A stretch of DNA of 64,000 bases from Klenkia marina (GTDB lineage Bacteria > Actinomycetota > Actinomycetes > Mycobacteriales > Geodermatophilaceae), in contig NZ_FMUH01000001.1 in NCBI RefSeq assembly GCF_900101025.1, forward strand, positions 806,001 to 870,000. Reading direction: 5' to 3'. Below the pieces are notes generated by a model. The model was not told where the DNA came from. It did not search any database and saw nothing but the letters and a program-made list of their open reading frames with translations. Shown piece after piece: positions 18,725 to 48,210 of this stretch (within the stretch, counting starts at the first letter, position 1; the number at the start of each line of letters is the position of its first letter). Position numbers and translations under genes: made by a program.

Positions 18725-19999
18725 TCAGGCGTCCTTCGGCGAGCTGTCGGCGGCGGCGCGGGCGGCGAGGCGTTCGCGCTGCGGGATCACCACGTACTTC
18801 GGGTCCTTGGACGACGCCATGCCCGCGTCGAAGACCCCGAAGCGGGTCAGCAGCGAGCCCGCGGCCAGCAGCGCACCGCTGGCGACGGCGCCCCAGCGGC
18901 GGCCACCCACCAGCGCGGCGCCGACGGCCCCGGCGGAGGTGCAGGCCCGTGCCGCGCGCAGCAGCTTCCCGGCCCGGCCGATGTGGAAGGGCTCGCTGAC
19001 GATGCCGTGGTCGTGCTCCACCTTGTGCATCGCGGCCAGCTCGACCGCGGCGCCGACCACCGCGGCCGAGCGCGCCGGCCCGGCCTGGTCCACGGGGGTG
19101 AACGCCATGCAGAGCCCGCCACCGGCGGCCAGCGCCGAACCGGTGAACACGAACGGCAGCTGGTTGCCCGGCTCGTGCCAGCTCGGCGTCGCGGTGTTGG
19201 CCAGCAGCACCGCGGTGTAGGCCGCCATCGGCCCACCGAAGGCCGCCGCGCCCACGCTCGCCGTCCGGCGCAGGCCCGCCGAGCGCACCAGCCGCGGGAA
19301 CCAGCCACGCGACCGGCGCACGGCGGGCACTCCGGAGAGCAGGGTGAGGGCAGCCGCTCCCCCGGCCGCCGTGCTGAACGGCGACAGGATGTAGGAGCCC
19401 ACGCTCAACGGCGAGGTCGGCTTGAACACCCGCAGCATGTGCAGGAACCGCTCGGGCCGACCCAGGTCGTGGATCAGGAAACCGACGCTGGCGATCGCGC
19501 CACCACCGGCGACCAGGTGCGCAGCACGGGCGAGGGCGGGGCGGCCGGTGAACTCGGCGCCGGCCCCCAGCACCGCCGACGACCCCGCCGCACCGCCGAG
19601 GAACAGGTAGAGCGGTACATCGGGGGTCTTCCACACCGCCGACTTCACGATCTGCCGGCCGTAGTAGCTCTGGAAGTCCGCATCGCCCACGGTCGGGTCG
19701 CCGTCGCGGGCACCTCCGCGGCGTCCCCTCCGCTTGCGCTTCTCGCGCCCGGACGCCGAGGGTCCGTCGGCCTTGCGCCAGCCACCACCGGGGGTGGCCA
19801 CGCCCGAGACGCCGGGCCGGTGGTCGAGCGGGGCGTCGACGTCCTCGCTGGGCACACCGGTGCGCCCCATCTCGGGGGTCCGCGCCTGCGCGACCTCGGG
19901 GTCGGGCTGGGCGACCGGGGCCTGCGCCGCCCGGTCGGGTCCGGCGCCCTCGGCCGGCGCGCCGCCGTCGCCGGGCTCGCTCGCGTGCCGGGGGGTCAT
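18725..19999 (-). CDS. Formate dehydrogenase NrfD-like membrane subunit
   Basis: 424-residue membrane subunit that should anchor the formate dehydrogenase and pass electrons to quinone. The first about 130 residues are a hydrophilic Pro/Gly/Arg-rich extension. From DADFQSYYGRQIVKSAVWK the protein matches NrfD/PsrC-type anchors, with hydrophobic helices such as PLYLFLGGAAGSSAVLGAGA, LVAGGGAIASVGFLIHDLGR and GPMAAYTAVLLANTA. G-R-P-E-R-F-L-H-M-L-R is the usual conserved loop. ATG 19999 overlaps the stop of the beta-subunit gene (ATGA), so synthesis is coupled. The long basic N-terminal extension is unusual compared with standard NrfD proteins. The C-terminus (KDPKYVVIPQRER) is typical of actinobacterial homologues. 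Confidence 0.85.
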   Translation of the reverse strand: MTPRHASEPGDGGAPAEGAGPDRAAQAPVAQPDPEVAQARTPEMGRTGVPSEDVDAPLDHRPGVSGVATPGGGWRKADGPSASGREKRKRRGRRGGARDGDPTVGDADFQSYYGRQIVKSAVWKTPDVPLYLFLGGAAGSSAVLGAGAEFTGRPALARAAHLVAGGGAIASVGFLIHDLGRPERFLHMLRVFKPTSPLSVGSYILSPFSTAAGGAAALTLLSGVPAVRRSRGWFPRLVRSAGLRRTASVGAAAFGGPMAAYTAVLLANTATPSWHEPGNQLPFVFTGSALAAGGGLCMAFTPVDQAGPARSAAVVGAAVELAAMHKVEHDHGIVSEPFHIGRAGKLLRAARACTSAGAVGAALVGGRRWGAVASGALLAAGSLLTRFGVFDAGMASSKDPKYVVIPQRERLAARAAADSSPKDA

Positions 20000-21087
20000 C
20001 GCCGCCGCCCCAGGAAGCCGGAGAGCGCCACGCCGACCAGCATCGCCGCGGCACCCGCGGCGTGCCGCCACATGGAGGGCAGGTCACGGGTGGTGACCAC
20101 CGGGTCCGGCGGCAGCCCGTAGACCTCCGGCTCGTCGAGCAGCAGGAAGAACGCCCCCGCGCCGCCCACGCCGTCGTCGGTGTCCCGGCCGTAGAGCCGG
20201 GCAGTGGTCACACCCTGCTCGGTGAGCGTCGCCAGCCGCGCGTCCGCGCGGGCCTGCAGCTCGTCGAGGTCGCCGAACTGGATCGACTGCGTGGGGCAGG
20301 CGGTGGCGCACGCGGGCTGCAGACCGTCGGTGAGCCGGTCGTAGCACATCGTGCACTTGAAGACCCGGCCGTCGTCCTTGCGTTGGTCGATCACGCCGTA
20401 CGGGCAGGCCGGCACGCAGTAGCCGCAGCCGTTGCAGATGTCGTCCTGCACCACGACGGTGCCGAACTCGGTGCGGAACAGCGCCCCGGTCGGGCAGACG
20501 TCGAGGCAACCGGCGTGCGTGCAGTGCTTGCAGACGTCGCTGGACATCAGCCAGCGGATCTCGCGGTCCGCCGACTGCGCCGTCTGCGGGTCGAACGAGG
20601 ACAGCGCCTGCGCGTTCAGCACGCTGTGCTGGTCGATCGTGACGCCGTCGGCGTTCGCGTGGGACGGCGTCTCGGCCGACCCGCAGGACCCGCCGCACCC
20701 ACCGGCGGACCCGACCCCCTGGCCGGGCGCAGCCGGGGCCCCGATGGCGGGCATGGGGAGGTCCACCGAGCGCGACTGCTCGACGAACGCCACGTGCCGC
20801 CACGAGTTCGCGCCGAGCATGCCGGTGTTGTCGTAGCTCATGCCCGACAGGCCGAGGGCGTCGCGGTTGCCGTCGGCGTCGTCCATCGGGAGCGTGTTCC
20901 ACTCCTTGCAGGCCACCTCGCAGGCCTTGCACCCGATGCAGACGCTGGTGTCGGTGAAGAACCCGACCCGCGCCGGGTGGTCGGGCTCGTAGCCGGCCTC
21001 GCCGGTGACGTCGGGCAGCGGCCCGAACAGCCGGTTCTCCGGGTCGTTGCCGGTGAAGGCCGGGCTGGCGGAGCTGATCTGGCTCAC
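19996..21087 (-). CDS. fdhB: Formate dehydrogenase iron-sulfur beta subunit
   Basis: 363-residue electron-transfer subunit with four 4Fe-4S sites. Cysteine blocks are visible at CIGCKACEVACKEW (about residue 50), CKHCTHAGCLDVCPTGA (about 188), CNGCGYCVPACPYG (about 220) and CTMCYDRLTDGLQPACATAC (about 246), as in FdnH/FdoH. A C-terminal hydrophobic helix (AAGAAAMLVGVALSGFLG) would anchor it in the membrane. It starts with GTG 21087 overlapping the alpha-subunit stop. An insertion around residues 115-150 contains a Gly/Cys-rich stretch (GGCGGSCG) not needed for the four clusters. It carries electrons from the catalytic subunit to the NrfD-like anchor. Confidence 0.92.
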   Translation of the reverse strand: MSQISSASPAFTGNDPENRLFGPLPDVTGEAGYEPDHPARVGFFTDTSVCIGCKACEVACKEWNTLPMDDADGNRDALGLSGMSYDNTGMLGANSWRHVAFVEQSRSVDLPMPAIGAPAAPGQGVGSAGGCGGSCGSAETPSHANADGVTIDQHSVLNAQALSSFDPQTAQSADREIRWLMSSDVCKHCTHAGCLDVCPTGALFRTEFGTVVVQDDICNGCGYCVPACPYGVIDQRKDDGRVFKCTMCYDRLTDGLQPACATACPTQSIQFGDLDELQARADARLATLTEQGVTTARLYGRDTDDGVGGAGAFFLLLDEPEVYGLPPDPVVTTRDLPSMWRHAAGAAAMLVGVALSGFLGRRR

Positions 21088-24000
21088 GAGGTGCCCTCCG
21101 CGATGTGGTCCGGTGCGCTCTGGGTGGTGTCCGCGCCGGAGTCCTCACCGGTCATGTTCGTCTCCTCGACCGGCGAACGGCCACCGACCGGCACGCGGCC
21201 GCTCTTGACGCCGGCCCGCTGCCGGTAGCTCTCGACCAGGTCGACCAGCGCCGGGCCCCGCGGACGGCGACCGGCCTGGATGTCGCAGGTGGCGACCTTC
21301 GACTCCTGGATGTGCACGTTGGGGTCCATCACCACGCCGAACAGGTCGTTGCCGCTGTCGCCGGTGGAGATGCCCTGCTCGCCCCAGTGGTACGGGACGC
21401 CGATCTGGTGCACGACCCGCCCGCCGCCCACCTTCAGCGGCCGCATGCGCTCGGTGACCAGCACCCGCGCCTCGATCGCCGTGCGGGCGCTGACCAGCGT
21501 CGCCCAGCCGCCGTTCTCCAGCCCGCGCTCGTGCGCCAGCTGGGGGCTGACCTCCACGAAGAACTCGGGCTGCAGCTCGGCCAGGTAGGGCAGCGTGCGG
21601 CTCATGCCACCGGCCGTGTGGTGCTCGGTCAGCCGGTACGTGGTGAACGCGTACGGGTAGACGTCGCTGGTCGGCGGGTTGCTGCGGTTCCAGGCCGCCT
21701 CGATGACCTCACGCCCCGGGTTCGCCTGCTGCCGGTAGAGCAGGTTCGGCATCGGTGACTCGTCGGGCTCGTAGTGCGTCGGCAGCGGCCCGTCGGCCAG
21801 GCCCGACGGCGCGTACAGCCAGGCCTTCCCGTCGTTCTGCATGATGAACGCGTCGGCGCCGCTGATGCCGGCCGCGCCCTTCGCCCCGGGCTCGGGACGG
21901 TAGGACGGCGGCTTGGTCGCCTCGAAGTCCGGGACGTCGTGACCCGTCCACCTCTGGGCGTCCTCGTCCCACCAGACGTAGGCCTTGCGCTCGCTCCACG
22001 GCTTGCCCTCGGGGTCGGCCGAGGCGCGGTTGTAGAGCGTGCGGCGGTTGGCCGGCCACGCCCAGCCCCACTCCGGGGCCACCCAGTTCTGCTCGCGCCC
22101 GGGCTTGCGGCGGTCGGACTGGTTGACCTCGTCGGCGTAGACGCCGGTGTAGATCCAGCAGCCGGCCGTCGTCGTCCCGTCGTCCTTGAGCTCGGTGTAG
22201 CTCGAGAGCGCCTTGCCGTCCGGGCCCACGCCGTTGATCTCGCGCAGCACCGCCTCGGCCGACGGCTCGACCAACGGGCCGTGCGTCGGGTAGTCCCAGG
22301 TCAGCGCCTGCAGACCGCGGTCGCGCGGGTCGGTCGAGTCGCGCAGCCGGTCGCGCAGGATGCGGCCCAGGTGGAAGTAGAACCACAGGTCGCTGCGGGC
22401 GTCGTCCGGCGGCTCGATCGCCTGGCGGTGCCACTGCAGCACGCGCTGGGTGTTGGTGAAGGTGCCTTCCTTCTCCGTGTGCGTGGCCGCCGGCATGAAG
22501 AAGACCTCGGTGCCGATCTGGTCGGTGACCAGCTCGCCGGTGGCGATCTCGGGCGCGGTCTGCCAGAAGGTGGCCGACTCGATCATCTGCAGGTCGCGGA
22601 CGACGAGCCAGTCGAGGTTGGCCAGGCCCAGGCGCTGCATCTTGCCGTTGGCGTGCCCGACCGCAGGGTTCTCGCCGACCAGGAAGTAGCCGGGGATCTT
22701 GCCCTGGATCATGTCGGCGACCTGGCGGTACGAACCGTGGTCACCGTTGATCTTGGGCAGCAGGTCGTAGCACCAGTCGTTCTCGGCCGTCGCGGCGTCG
22801 CCGAACCAGGCCTTGAGCAGGCTGACCATGTAGGCCCGGGTGCCGCCCCAGAACCCGACCATCTCGTCGCCGACCTTGCAGAAGTCGTCGAGGGTGGCGT
22901 GCTCCTCGGCGTGCGGCATCGGCAGGTAGCCCGGCAGCAGGTTGTACAGCGTCGGGATGTCGGTGGAGCCCTGGATCGAGGCGTGCCCGCGCAGCGCGAG
23001 GATGCCGCCGCCGGGCCGGCCCATGTTGCCCAGCAGCGCCTGCAGGATGCCGGCGGTGCGGATGTACTGCACGCCGACGGTGTGGTGGGTCCAGCCGACC
23101 GAGTACACCCAGGCGGTGGTGCGGTCGCGGCCGGAGTTCGCCGTCACCGCGCGGGCGACGTCGAGGAACACCTCGGGCTCGATGCCGCAGATGTCGCCCA
23201 CCATCTCGGGGGTGTAGCGGGCGAAGTGCCGCTTCATCACCTGGTAGACGCTGCGCGGGTGCTGGAGGGTCGGGTCGGTCACCGGCTGGCCCAGCGAGTC
23301 CTTCTGCGGTGCCGGCGGGTCGATCTCGTCGGTGCCGGTGGCGCTCGGCTCGTGGGCGCCCTCGAACTGCCACGACGTCTTGTCGTAGCTCTTCGAGTCC
23401 TGGTCCCACCCGGAGAAGAGGCCGTCGAGGTCCTCGGTGTCGACGAAGTCCTCCCCGACCAGCGACGAGGCGTTGGTGTAGGCCAGCACGTAGTCGCGGA
23501 AGTCGAGCTCGTTCTCCAGCACGTAGGAGATCAGCCCGCCGAGGAACGCGATGTCGGTGCCCGCGCGCAGCGGCACGTGGGTGTCGGACACCGCCGACGT
23601 GCGGGTGAAGCGCGGGTCGATGTGGATGACCTTCGCCCCGCGCGCCTTCGCCTCCATCACCCACTGGAACCCGACCGGATGGCACTCGGCCATGTTCGAG
23701 CCCTCGATGACGATGCAGTCGGCGTTGACCAGGTCCTGCTGGAACCCGGTGGCCCCGCCGCGGCCGTACGTGGCACCCAGACCGGGCACCGTGGCGGAGT
23801 GCTATATGCGCGCCTGGTTCTCGATCTGGATCGCGCCCATGGCGCTGTACAGCTTCTTCATCAAGTAGTTCTCTTCGTTGTCCAGCGTCGCGCCACCGAG
23901 GCTGGCCAGCCCCATGGTGCGGTTGACTCGCTGGTCACCGTCGACGTCCTGCCAGCCCTTCTCCCGCGCGGCCAGCACGCGGTCGGCGATCATCTCCATC

Positions 24001-24371
24001 GCCTCGTCGAGGGCGAGGTCCTCCCACTCGGTGCCGTACGGACGCCGGTACTTCACGGTCGTCACACGGGTCGGCGAGGTGACCAGCTGCTTGCTGGCGC
24101 TGCCCTTGGGGCACAGCCGGCCGCGGCTGATCGGCGAGTCGGGGTCGCCCTCGATCTGCACGATCTGCTCGTCCTTGACGAACACCCGCTGGCCGCATCC
24201 CACGGCGCAGTAGGGGCAGATCGACTTCACGACCCGGTCGGCCGTGGCGGTGCGCGAGGTGATGCCCTCGGTCTTCCTGCTCCGCGCGGCCTGGCCCCGG
24301 CCCAAGGGGTCGGAGCCGGTCAGCTGGCGGAACACCGGCCACTGGTCGAGCCACGTCTTCACCAGCGTCAC
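21084..24371 (-). CDS. fdhA: Formate dehydrogenase alpha, selenoprotein with UAG codon
   Basis: Catalytic molybdenum or tungsten bis-MGD subunit oxidising formate to CO2; 1095 residues if UAG is read. It starts with GTG 24371. The N-terminal 4Fe-4S site is C52-x2-C55-x3-C59 ... C87 (CPYCAVGC, RLCPKG). At codon 190 (23802-23804) an in-frame TAG interrupts NQARI-HSATVPGLGATYGRG, exactly where homologues have Sec or Cys (ARV-U-H). The frame is open and conserved on both sides: molybdopterin-binding motifs, VYSVGWTHHTVGVQ and LGNMGRPGGGI follow. A hairpin with a GGUCU loop begins 11 bases after the TAG. UAG-coded Sec is known in Geodermatophilus and Blastococcus, so I read it as Sec rather than a broken gene. 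The sel genes needed are outside the window. Confidence 0.92.
23772..23790 (-). promoter_or_regulatory. SECIS-like hairpin after UAG codon
   Basis: On the mRNA strand GGUGCCC (23790-23784), loop GGUCU (23783-23779), then GGGUGCC (23778-23772). The stem has seven pairs, two of them G-U. The stem begins exactly 11 bases after the UAG at 23804-23802. Bacterial SECIS elements lie inside the reading frame just after the codon; the E. coli fdhF element also has a GGUCU-type apical loop and this spacing. SelB binding is inferred. Confidence 0.75.
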
Positions 24372-46587: not shown

Positions 46588-48210
46588 GTGGACGTCGGAC
46601 CGTTGACCTCGGTGGAGCAGCCCGCGCTGCCCGCCGTCGTCGCCGCGCTCGACGAGCTGGAGGCCGACGCCCGCTTCGAGAGCGAGCTCCCCCGCATCGC
46701 CCCGGCCGCCGTGGCCGTGGCCCGGGACGCCCGCCTGCTGGGCCGCGAGGACCTCGCCTGCCGGGCCGACCTGGTCTCCGCCGACATCCGCCGCCGCGCC
46801 GGGCACCTGGCCGACGCCGGCCGCACCGCCCGCGAGATGCTGCAGTGGGCCGAGCAGAACGACGCCCGCATGGTGCTGGCCCGGGCCCACCACCTGATGG
46901 CCGCGGTGTTCAACGAGCTCGGCGACCTCGCCCAGGCGCTGGAGCACGCGGTGCACTCGGTCGACCTGCTCGACGAGTCCACCCCGGCCCCGGTGCAGAT
47001 CGACCACCGCAAGCGCATGGCCGACTGCCTGGGCCTCAGCCGCGACCAGGGGGCGCAGGAGCTGTACCTCGAGGTGCTGGCGCTGGCCGAGCAGGCCCAC
47101 GACGTGCACCGCGCCGCCACCATCCTGAACAACAGCGCCTACTGCGCGTCGCTGGCCGGCCAGCACGACGAGGCGCTGACCGCGATCGGCCGCCTGCGCG
47201 AGCTGTCCGACGCGCACGACCTGCCGCTGGACCTGGCCACCCTCGACACCGTGGGCCGGGTGCTGCTCGGCCTGGGCCGCTGGGACGACGCCGAGCAGGC
47301 GCTGCGCCCGGGCCTGGAGCCCGAGGTGCTCGACGCGTCGGTGACCGGCGACGGCGGGGCGGACTTCCTGCTCACCCTCGCCGAGGTGCAGCGGGTGCGC
47401 GGGCAGCACGCCGAGGCCGGCGCCGCCCTCGACGAGTGCATCCGGCGCTGCGAGCGGCACGGGCTCACCTCGATCCGCACCCGTGCCCGCCGCGAGCGCG
47501 CCGCCCTGCTGGCCGCCGCCGGGGACCACCGCGGCGCCTACGAGGAGCACGTGCGCTACGCCGCCGAGGCGTTGGCGCAGCAGTCGGAGCAGCGCGAGGC
47601 GCGGGCCCGCACCCTGCAGGCGATGTACGAGACCACCGAGGCCCGCCGGCAGAGCCGCCGCTACCGCGAGCTGGCGCTGCGCGACGCCCTCACCGGCCTG
47701 TACAACCGCCGCCACGTCGACGAGCGGCTACCGGCCCTGCTGCTGCGCCGCGAGGTCGACGGCGACCCGGTGACCGTGGCGCTGCTGGACCTCGACCACT
47801 TCAAGCAGGTCAACGACACGTGCTCGCACGAGGTGGGCGACGCCGTGCTGCAGCAGGTGGCCCGCATCCTGCAGGCCGCCGCCGACGCGGCGCCGACCGG
47901 CAGCTTCGCGGCGCGGATGGGCGGCGAGGAGTTCCTGCTCGTCCTCGCCGGCCTGGACCGCGACGCCGCGGCCGACTGCCTCGAGGGCGTCCGCCGGTCG
48001 GTGGCCGAGCACCCCTGGGTCGCGCTGACCCAGGGCCTGCCGGTCACCGTGAGCATCGGGGTCGCCGCCGACGGCGGCGCACCCGGGGCCGCCGAGGTGC
48101 TGGCCCGGGCAGACGTGAACCTCTACCAGGCCAAGCGCACCGGCCGCGACCGCGTCGTGGGTCCGGGGGTCGTGGGTCCGGCACAGGTGGGCACCGGGCC
48201 CGCCCGGTGA
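46588..48210 (+). CDS. TPR-GGDEF diguanylate cyclase, copy 1
   Basis: 540-residue soluble protein. Residues 1-350 are helical repeats of TPR type (DARMVLARAHHLMAAVFNEL, AATILNNSAYCASLAGQHDE). A coiled linker follows (QSRRYRELALRDALTGLYNR), then a GGDEF domain about 365-525 with MGGEEFLLVLAG and DLDHFKQVNDTCSHEVGDAV. The catalytic GGEEF and the metal and GTP residues are intact, so it should synthesise c-di-GMP. No RxxD inhibitory site precedes the motif, so feedback inhibition is unlikely. It has no membrane segment or signal peptide; the TPR part may sense a partner. GTG 46588 is the start, and its stop overlaps the second copy (GTGA). Confidence 0.88.
   Translation: MDVGPLTSVEQPALPAVVAALDELEADARFESELPRIAPAAVAVARDARLLGREDLACRADLVSADIRRRAGHLADAGRTAREMLQWAEQNDARMVLARAHHLMAAVFNELGDLAQALEHAVHSVDLLDESTPAPVQIDHRKRMADCLGLSRDQGAQELYLEVLALAEQAHDVHRAATILNNSAYCASLAGQHDEALTAIGRLRELSDAHDLPLDLATLDTVGRVLLGLGRWDDAEQALRPGLEPEVLDASVTGDGGADFLLTLAEVQRVRGQHAEAGAALDECIRRCERHGLTSIRTRARRERAALLAAAGDHRGAYEEHVRYAAEALAQQSEQREARARTLQAMYETTEARRQSRRYRELALRDALTGLYNRRHVDERLPALLLRREVDGDPVTVALLDLDHFKQVNDTCSHEVGDAVLQQVARILQAAADAAPTGSFAARMGGEEFLLVLAGLDRDAAADCLEGVRRSVAEHPWVALTQGLPVTVSIGVAADGGAPGAAEVLARADVNLYQAKRTGRDRVVGPGVVGPAQVGTGPAR

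Follow-up and report, generated by a model that had tools for sequence, protein, structure and literature searches.

A UAG codon in the formate dehydrogenase gene of Klenkia marina is predicted to encode selenocysteine, with signs of repeated codon change among its relatives

We analyzed a stretch of 64,000 nucleotides of Klenkia marina (Geodermatophilaceae; NZ_FMUH01000001.1, positions 806,001-870,000 of the forward strand, assembly GCF_900101025.1), hereafter the window, whose source genome spans 4.22 Mb with a completeness of 99.97%. The window encodes fdhA, the alpha subunit of an FDH-N type formate dehydrogenase, whose frame contains a TAG at codon 190. Judging from sequence comparisons, it is nearly certain that this codon is read as selenocysteine (Sec) by a tRNA-Sec with anticodon CUA encoded beside selA and selB. 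This reading is predicted from the codon, the anticodon of the tRNA, the sel genes, a covarying hairpin and the match between anticodon and codon across the family. Mukai et al. (2016) reportedly described UAG-directed selenocysteine in Geodermatophilus and Blastococcus. That such cases had been reported for these two genera was also claimed by an earlier reading of the window made from its letters alone (the sequence-only reading). Santesmasses et al. (2017; PMC5330540) describe tRNA-Sec(CUA) in three genomes of Geodermatophilaceae and UAG-encoded selenocysteine in their formate dehydrogenase, UGSC and AhpC proteins and cite Mukai et al. (2016). UAG-encoded selenocysteine in Geodermatophilaceae is already in print (2016-2017), and our analysis extends this natural genetic-code change to Klenkia as an additional member. 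What we add are genera with a UCA anticodon inside the family, the repeated re-spelling of the fdhA codon, the base preceding this codon and one genome with both tRNAs.

Translation confirmed that the fdhA frame is interrupted solely by the TAG and then remains open over 905 codons until a TGA at codon 1096. The protein exceeded the curated cut-offs of NCBIfam NF041513 (1913 bits) and TIGR01553 (929 bits), presented the Pfam domains Molybdop_Fe4S4, Molybdopterin and Molydop_binding and matched the structure chain 1kqf_A (E = 6e-203). Residue 190, bordered by NQARI and HSATVPGLG, aligned to the X that denotes selenocysteine in both 1kqf_A and 1h0h_A, which agrees with the placement of the TAG at the catalytic Sec/Cys site in the sequence-only reading. 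It is conceivable that this TAG is a true stop and that fdhA is a pseudogene or is split into two pieces. Indeed, TAG serves as a plain stop in other likely genes, as had been noted before: when genes were called crudely in the window plus a further 60 kb of its genome, 75 likely frames were obtained, ending in TGA (65), TAG (9, one of them the fdhA site) or TAA (1), such that TAG ends 8 of the 74 other frames. However, the length of open frame past the TAG, the presence of TAG at every site read in the family and the covariation of the hairpin at silent positions (both described below) make a true stop very improbable.

We identified a single tRNA-Sec over the Rfam cut-off in the genome (C5:111845-111936; RF01852, 67.6 bits), with anticodon CUA. 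ARAGORN called the same anticodon (cta) and labelled the tRNA as tRNA-Pyl because of it. The gene selA starts 20 bases past the end of this tRNA and is followed by selB, with selD on the opposite strand some 1.2 kb upstream; selA, selB and selD all exceeded their NCBIfam cut-offs (respectively, TIGR00474, TIGR00475 and TIGR00476). The components that the sequence-only reading had proposed to look for were all present, including the tRNA and SelB on which it hinged. The SelA protein is 86-90% identical to those of five records titled Klenkia, which is consistent with membership in the family. The ARAGORN label is in line with an alternative in which the TAG encodes a different amino acid, either pyrrolysine, whose system also uses UAG and a CUA tRNA, or a residue inserted by a near-cognate tRNA or an amber suppressor. 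However, the tRNA is a full tRNA-Sec according to Rfam and adjoins selA and selB, residue 190 faces selenocysteine in solved enzymes, and a profile search of the genome found no PylS over the cut-off (best score 17.5 bits vs 178.15). We regard the insertion of another amino acid as highly improbable.

Of 112 Geodermatophilaceae genomes, 100 contained FdhA (119 table rows). We analyzed 107 of these rows, leaving out 12 second copies or contig-end pieces, most of which start past the site. The Sec site was readable by script in 104 of the 107 rows and was TAG in all 104, from 96 genomes including that of K. marina; one further row (L214), read by eye, also has TAG, and the last two rows are the copies of genome G079 described below, in which the site is missing. 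This rules out chance or sequencing error: the notion that the codon is a miscalled TGA, TGC or TGT is refuted by the agreement of 96 genome assemblies and by the matching tRNA anticodon. UGSC proteins were detected in 54 of the 112 genomes, where internal stops, when present, are always TAG and never TGA; none was found in K. marina or in the other eight genomes of its genus group (g1). Across a class-wide sample of 393 genomes, FdhA was found in 108 (112 rows, 110 of them outside Geodermatophilaceae). Among the 87 outside rows read in DNA, the site was TGA in 66, TGC in 20, TGT in one and TAG in none. The other 23 comprise 20 rows that list TGA without TAG and three that do not span the site. 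A single outside row (G397) lists a TAG, and its Sec site (L305) is TGA.

A hairpin corresponding to a selenocysteine insertion sequence (SECIS) follows the TAG. Taking the T of TAG as base 1, the stem is formed by bases 15-21 and 27-33 and encloses a loop at 22-26, which reads GGUCU in 37 of 38 distinct UAG sequences and AGUCU in the other. The pairs 15-33, 18-30 and 21-27 connect the third positions of codons, which means that constraints on the protein do not explain their covariation. Pair 18-30 occurred as C-G (19), G-U (9), G-C (7) and U-A (3), and was formed in 38 of 38 UAG sequences (shuffle mean 17.9; no count this high among 2000 shuffles), and pair 15-33 was formed in 34 of 38 (mean 26.3; 0 of 2000); these shuffles ignore relatedness, so that the counts overstate the number of covariation events. 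For pair 21-27, a single sequence carries the change (42 of 2000 shuffles). Among 41 distinct UGA sequences, pair 18-30 was formed in 40 (mean 27.0) and pair 15-33 in 30 (mean 24.3); for neither pair did any of 2000 shuffles reach the observed count. In 21 sequences with cysteine at the site, pair 19-29 was formed in one and pair 18-30 in nine, and the loop GGUCU was found in three. These comparisons indicate that the SECIS hairpin is kept in the UAG and UGA groups and degraded in the Cys group. They also support the earlier proposal that context sets the meaning of TAG.

The predicted mechanism would follow the known route of selenocysteine insertion. Seryl-tRNA synthetase would charge tRNA-Sec(CUA) with serine, which SelA would convert to selenocysteine using selenophosphate from SelD; SelB would then bring the charged tRNA to the ribosome and bind the SECIS hairpin, which starts 11 bases past the TAG. 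Insertion would outcompete release factor 1 at the fdhA TAG, and TAG codons without the hairpin would still terminate. The E. coli gene fdhF (L365, NC_000913.3) shares the loop codons GGT CTG at positions +7 and +8 past the Sec codon and the SelA/SelB/SelD route. Unlike fdhF, the window gene pairs UAG with anticodon CUA instead of UGA with UCA, so that the competitor would be release factor 1 rather than release factor 2. The combination of UAG, tRNA-Sec(CUA), SelB and SECIS yields an active selenoprotein in E. coli, according to PMC3834832. PMC10778597 states that UAG, UAA and ten sense codons also serve for selenocysteine in nature, and the main text of a 2026 review (PMC13188914), in the passages covered, does not name Geodermatophilaceae. 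K. marina resembles the Geodermatophilus and Blastococcus cases in its tRNA-Sec(CUA), the UAG in formate dehydrogenase, the SECIS after the codon and its family, but belongs to a different genus, Klenkia, and is devoid of a UGSC protein.

We further analyzed the evolution of the anticodon. A tRNA-Sec was detected (E up to 1e-10) in 108 of the 112 Geodermatophilaceae genomes, and the CUA pattern was matched in 101. ARAGORN assigned 29 tRNA-Sec loci of the family to CUA (21) or UCA (8). Seven of the UCA loci belong to genomes of three genera (g6, g7 and g8) that lack a CUA match, and the eighth belongs to a genome that has both (G059). The genera with tRNA-Sec(UCA) place the anticodon switch inside Geodermatophilaceae. 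We built a SelA tree from 50 of the 52 rows found, after discarding two short ones. Its 19 CUA rows fall into a single clade (support 100/100), with G067 of genus g6 as sister (100/97). This topology fits a single change from UCA to CUA after g6 split off. The code change becomes testable as an evolutionary event, with genera that keep UCA, a main clade with CUA and five fdhA lineages with the new codon.

The fdhA codon itself appears to have changed more than once. We built a tree of the FdhA N-terminal region from 90 rows (28 of the 104 UAG, 57 of the 66 UGA and 5 of the 21 Cys rows), in which the UAG rows need five changes and starred branches force at least four. A single change was seen in 0% of 200 bootstrap trees and a single UAG clade was rejected (approximately unbiased test; P = 0.000369); a quick tree of all 191 FdhA rows also gave five changes. 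The lack of TAG in the outside relatives of the class that were read makes UGA to UAG the likely direction. These results suggest that UGA fdhA genes were probably re-spelled to UAG repeatedly, in five separate lineages, which would have followed the single anticodon change inside the family. The route may have been transfer into the family or old paralogues.

Several observations weigh against this reading of the codon and its history. In the SelA tree, the three rows from g7 and g8 cluster with families f25 and f35 (95/81), which points to a mixed history of either Geodermatophilaceae or SelA. The search of g6-g8 for FdhA returned solely a 63-residue piece (G071) and no copy whose Sec site could be read, so that within the family fdhA does not show the UCA side of the switch. 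The window sequence folded alone gave no signal beyond shuffles (z = 0.15 to 1.35 over five cuts); the bacterial SECIS was recognized by comparing homologues and not by single-sequence folding. Both fdhA copies of G079, a genome of the window's genus, are without a Sec site even though the genome has tRNA-Sec(CUA). Finally, G059 carries a tRNA-Sec(UCA) on contig C17 besides its tRNA-Sec(CUA) on contig C11. In the two G079 copies (L219 and L220), the segment that would carry the Sec codon and the SECIS is gone and the frame changes at that point, which may be a real loss or an assembly fault.

The genome with both tRNAs, probably Geodermatophilus sp. LHW52908, uses TAG in both FdhA and UGSC. 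Its contig C17 contains a CMD/AhpD-like frame with a TGA in the context CFY-TGA-MESH, divergent from the tRNA-Sec(UCA) and 315 bases from it (tRNA and frame together, L240:1173-2157). Cysteine stands at the place of this TGA in all 19 AhpD-like homologues of the family that were examined, and the homologue of K. marina (C5:350669-351085) has no internal stop. The TGA is preceded by TAT, and a hairpin could form past it (no shuffle control). A transporter gene on C17, present as a single copy in G059, is 79-82% identical to seven homologues of genus g4 and 82% identical to one homologue each of g2 and g3, which speaks against contamination from outside Geodermatophilaceae. Two Sec codons, UAG and UGA, are thus possibly used in one G059 cell, where they would share one set of enzymes and, if true, this genome would represent a natural two-codon selenocysteine code. 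Three JGI proteins closely similar to the AhpD-like frame (P0001, P0002 and P0005) present tryptophan at the Sec place (CFYW, CHYW), probably because TGA was translated as tryptophan.

The codon immediately before the Sec codon (codon -1) is strongly constrained in fdhA. We observed ATA at all 104 UAG sites of the family; at the 66 UGA sites it is ATT (45), ATA (19) or GTT (2), and at the 21 Cys sites it encodes valine (GTG in 12, GTC in 9). Its third base is A or U at 170 of 170 Sec sites (UAG and UGA) vs 0 of 21 Cys sites, a rule as strict as the U of loop codon +7. Isoleucine codons elsewhere are mostly ATC (2211 of 2281 in UAG genes, 1591 of 1645 in UGA genes), the remainder in UAG genes being 65 ATA and 5 ATT. 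We considered whether ATA is specific to UAG. Codon -1 changed 0 times in UAG rows (tree length 8.7) vs 17 times in UGA rows (12.8), which favours such a tie. However, isoleucine codons ending in A or T also lean to ATA elsewhere and a paired tree test had too few pairs, so we limit the claim to the wider rule of A or U, never C or G. The rule is weaker in UGSC genes: the motif was read in 27 of 30 loci, comprising 18 with TAG (preceded by GAT in 11 and GAC in 7) and 9 with Cys (all GAC). Unlike the window fdhA, which has A before the Sec codon, E. coli fdhF has C. Our guess is that the P-site codon could affect the contest with release factors. The rule would be a new and easily tested requirement of selenocysteine insertion in actinobacteria. 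Separately, a second ATA occurs at codon -35 of FdhA, accounting for 48 of the 65 over the 104 UAG fdhA stretches, far above background.

We then scanned 84,980 species, each represented by one genome, for long-armed tRNAs with anticodon CUA or UUA, using a pattern that requires fixed letters and misses tRNAs without them. This yielded 94 stretches (92 CTA and 2 TTA), 86 of which are titled Geodermatophilaceae. The others are L079, L089, L114, L129, L130, L086, L151 and L153. The first three contain a tRNA-Sec, and their SelA is about 75% identical to that of K. marina; no RNA family matched L086 at the cut-off. L151 (JAUNNF010000009.1) is a metagenome-assembled genome (MAG) contig titled Coriobacteriia bacterium with 35% G+C, in which selA, selB and a tRNA-Sec(CUA) (64.2 bits) stand in a row. 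Upstream, within the same 8 kb, lies grdA (glycine reductase protein A; PF04723, 266.7 bits), with a TAG at codon 44 in the context ECFV-TAG-TSAGAMDLENQ, preceded by GTT. We take codon 44 to be the Sec place of this protein. L151 is likely an independent case of UAG-encoded selenocysteine outside Geodermatophilaceae and, if true, would constitute a second origin. In Anaerovorax odorimutans SL.3.17 (L153:1117-4553; NZ_JANFXK010000006.1), a tRNA-Sec(UUA) of 54.8 bits directly precedes selA and selB, and its anticodon predicts UAA as the Sec codon. Our literature search, with most subscription journals outside its coverage, found no paper on selenocysteine in Klenkia and no report of two Sec codons in one cell, of the codon -1 base or of the Coriobacteriia and Anaerovorax cases. 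Taken as a whole, we lean slightly toward the view that the Sec codon is a swappable address, with one anticodon switch, five fdhA lineages re-spelled, UGA regained in G059 and an independent move in Coriobacteriia.

Two of the scanned records, L079 and L089, are titled Bacillus sp. AZ43 and Jatrophihabitans sp. and carry a Geodermatophilaceae-like tRNA-Sec(CUA) and SelA; they are probably misnamed or mixed. In L129:5213-5315 (Gemmiger gallinarum) and L130:2779-2868 (Erysipelotrichaceae MAG), we observed ordinary-type tRNAs with a CUA anticodon and long variable arms, which are possible amber suppressors.

Within the window, fdhA is followed by an iron-sulfur subunit and then by an NrfD-type membrane protein (Table 1). 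ARAGORN also called a 99-base tRNA-Thr (47568-47666) within a likely coding frame (46588-48210), which is probably false.

Table 1. Coordinates of the features described in the window and in L151
Feature	Sequence	Coordinates	Strand	Remarks
fdhA, FDH-N type formate dehydrogenase alpha subunit	window	21084..24371	-	1095 residues if TAG is read; start codon putative
In-frame TAG, codon 190, predicted selenocysteine codon	window	23802..23804	-	faces Sec of 1kqf_A and 1h0h_A
Codon -1, ATA (isoleucine)	window	23805..23807	-	sole ATA in fdhA; ATA in 104/104 family sites
SECIS hairpin GGUGCCC-GGUCU-GGGUGCC	window	23772..23790	-	bases 15-33 from T of TAG; loop GGUCU at 23779-23783
fdhB, iron-sulfur subunit	window	19996..21087	-	Fer4_11; TIGR01582 FDH-beta 175.7 bits, under cut-off 334.7
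NrfD-type membrane subunit, probable quinone-side anchor	window	18725..20071	-	PF03916, E = 5.3e-11
grdA and sel/tRNA locus	L151	2319-2795 and 4305-7693

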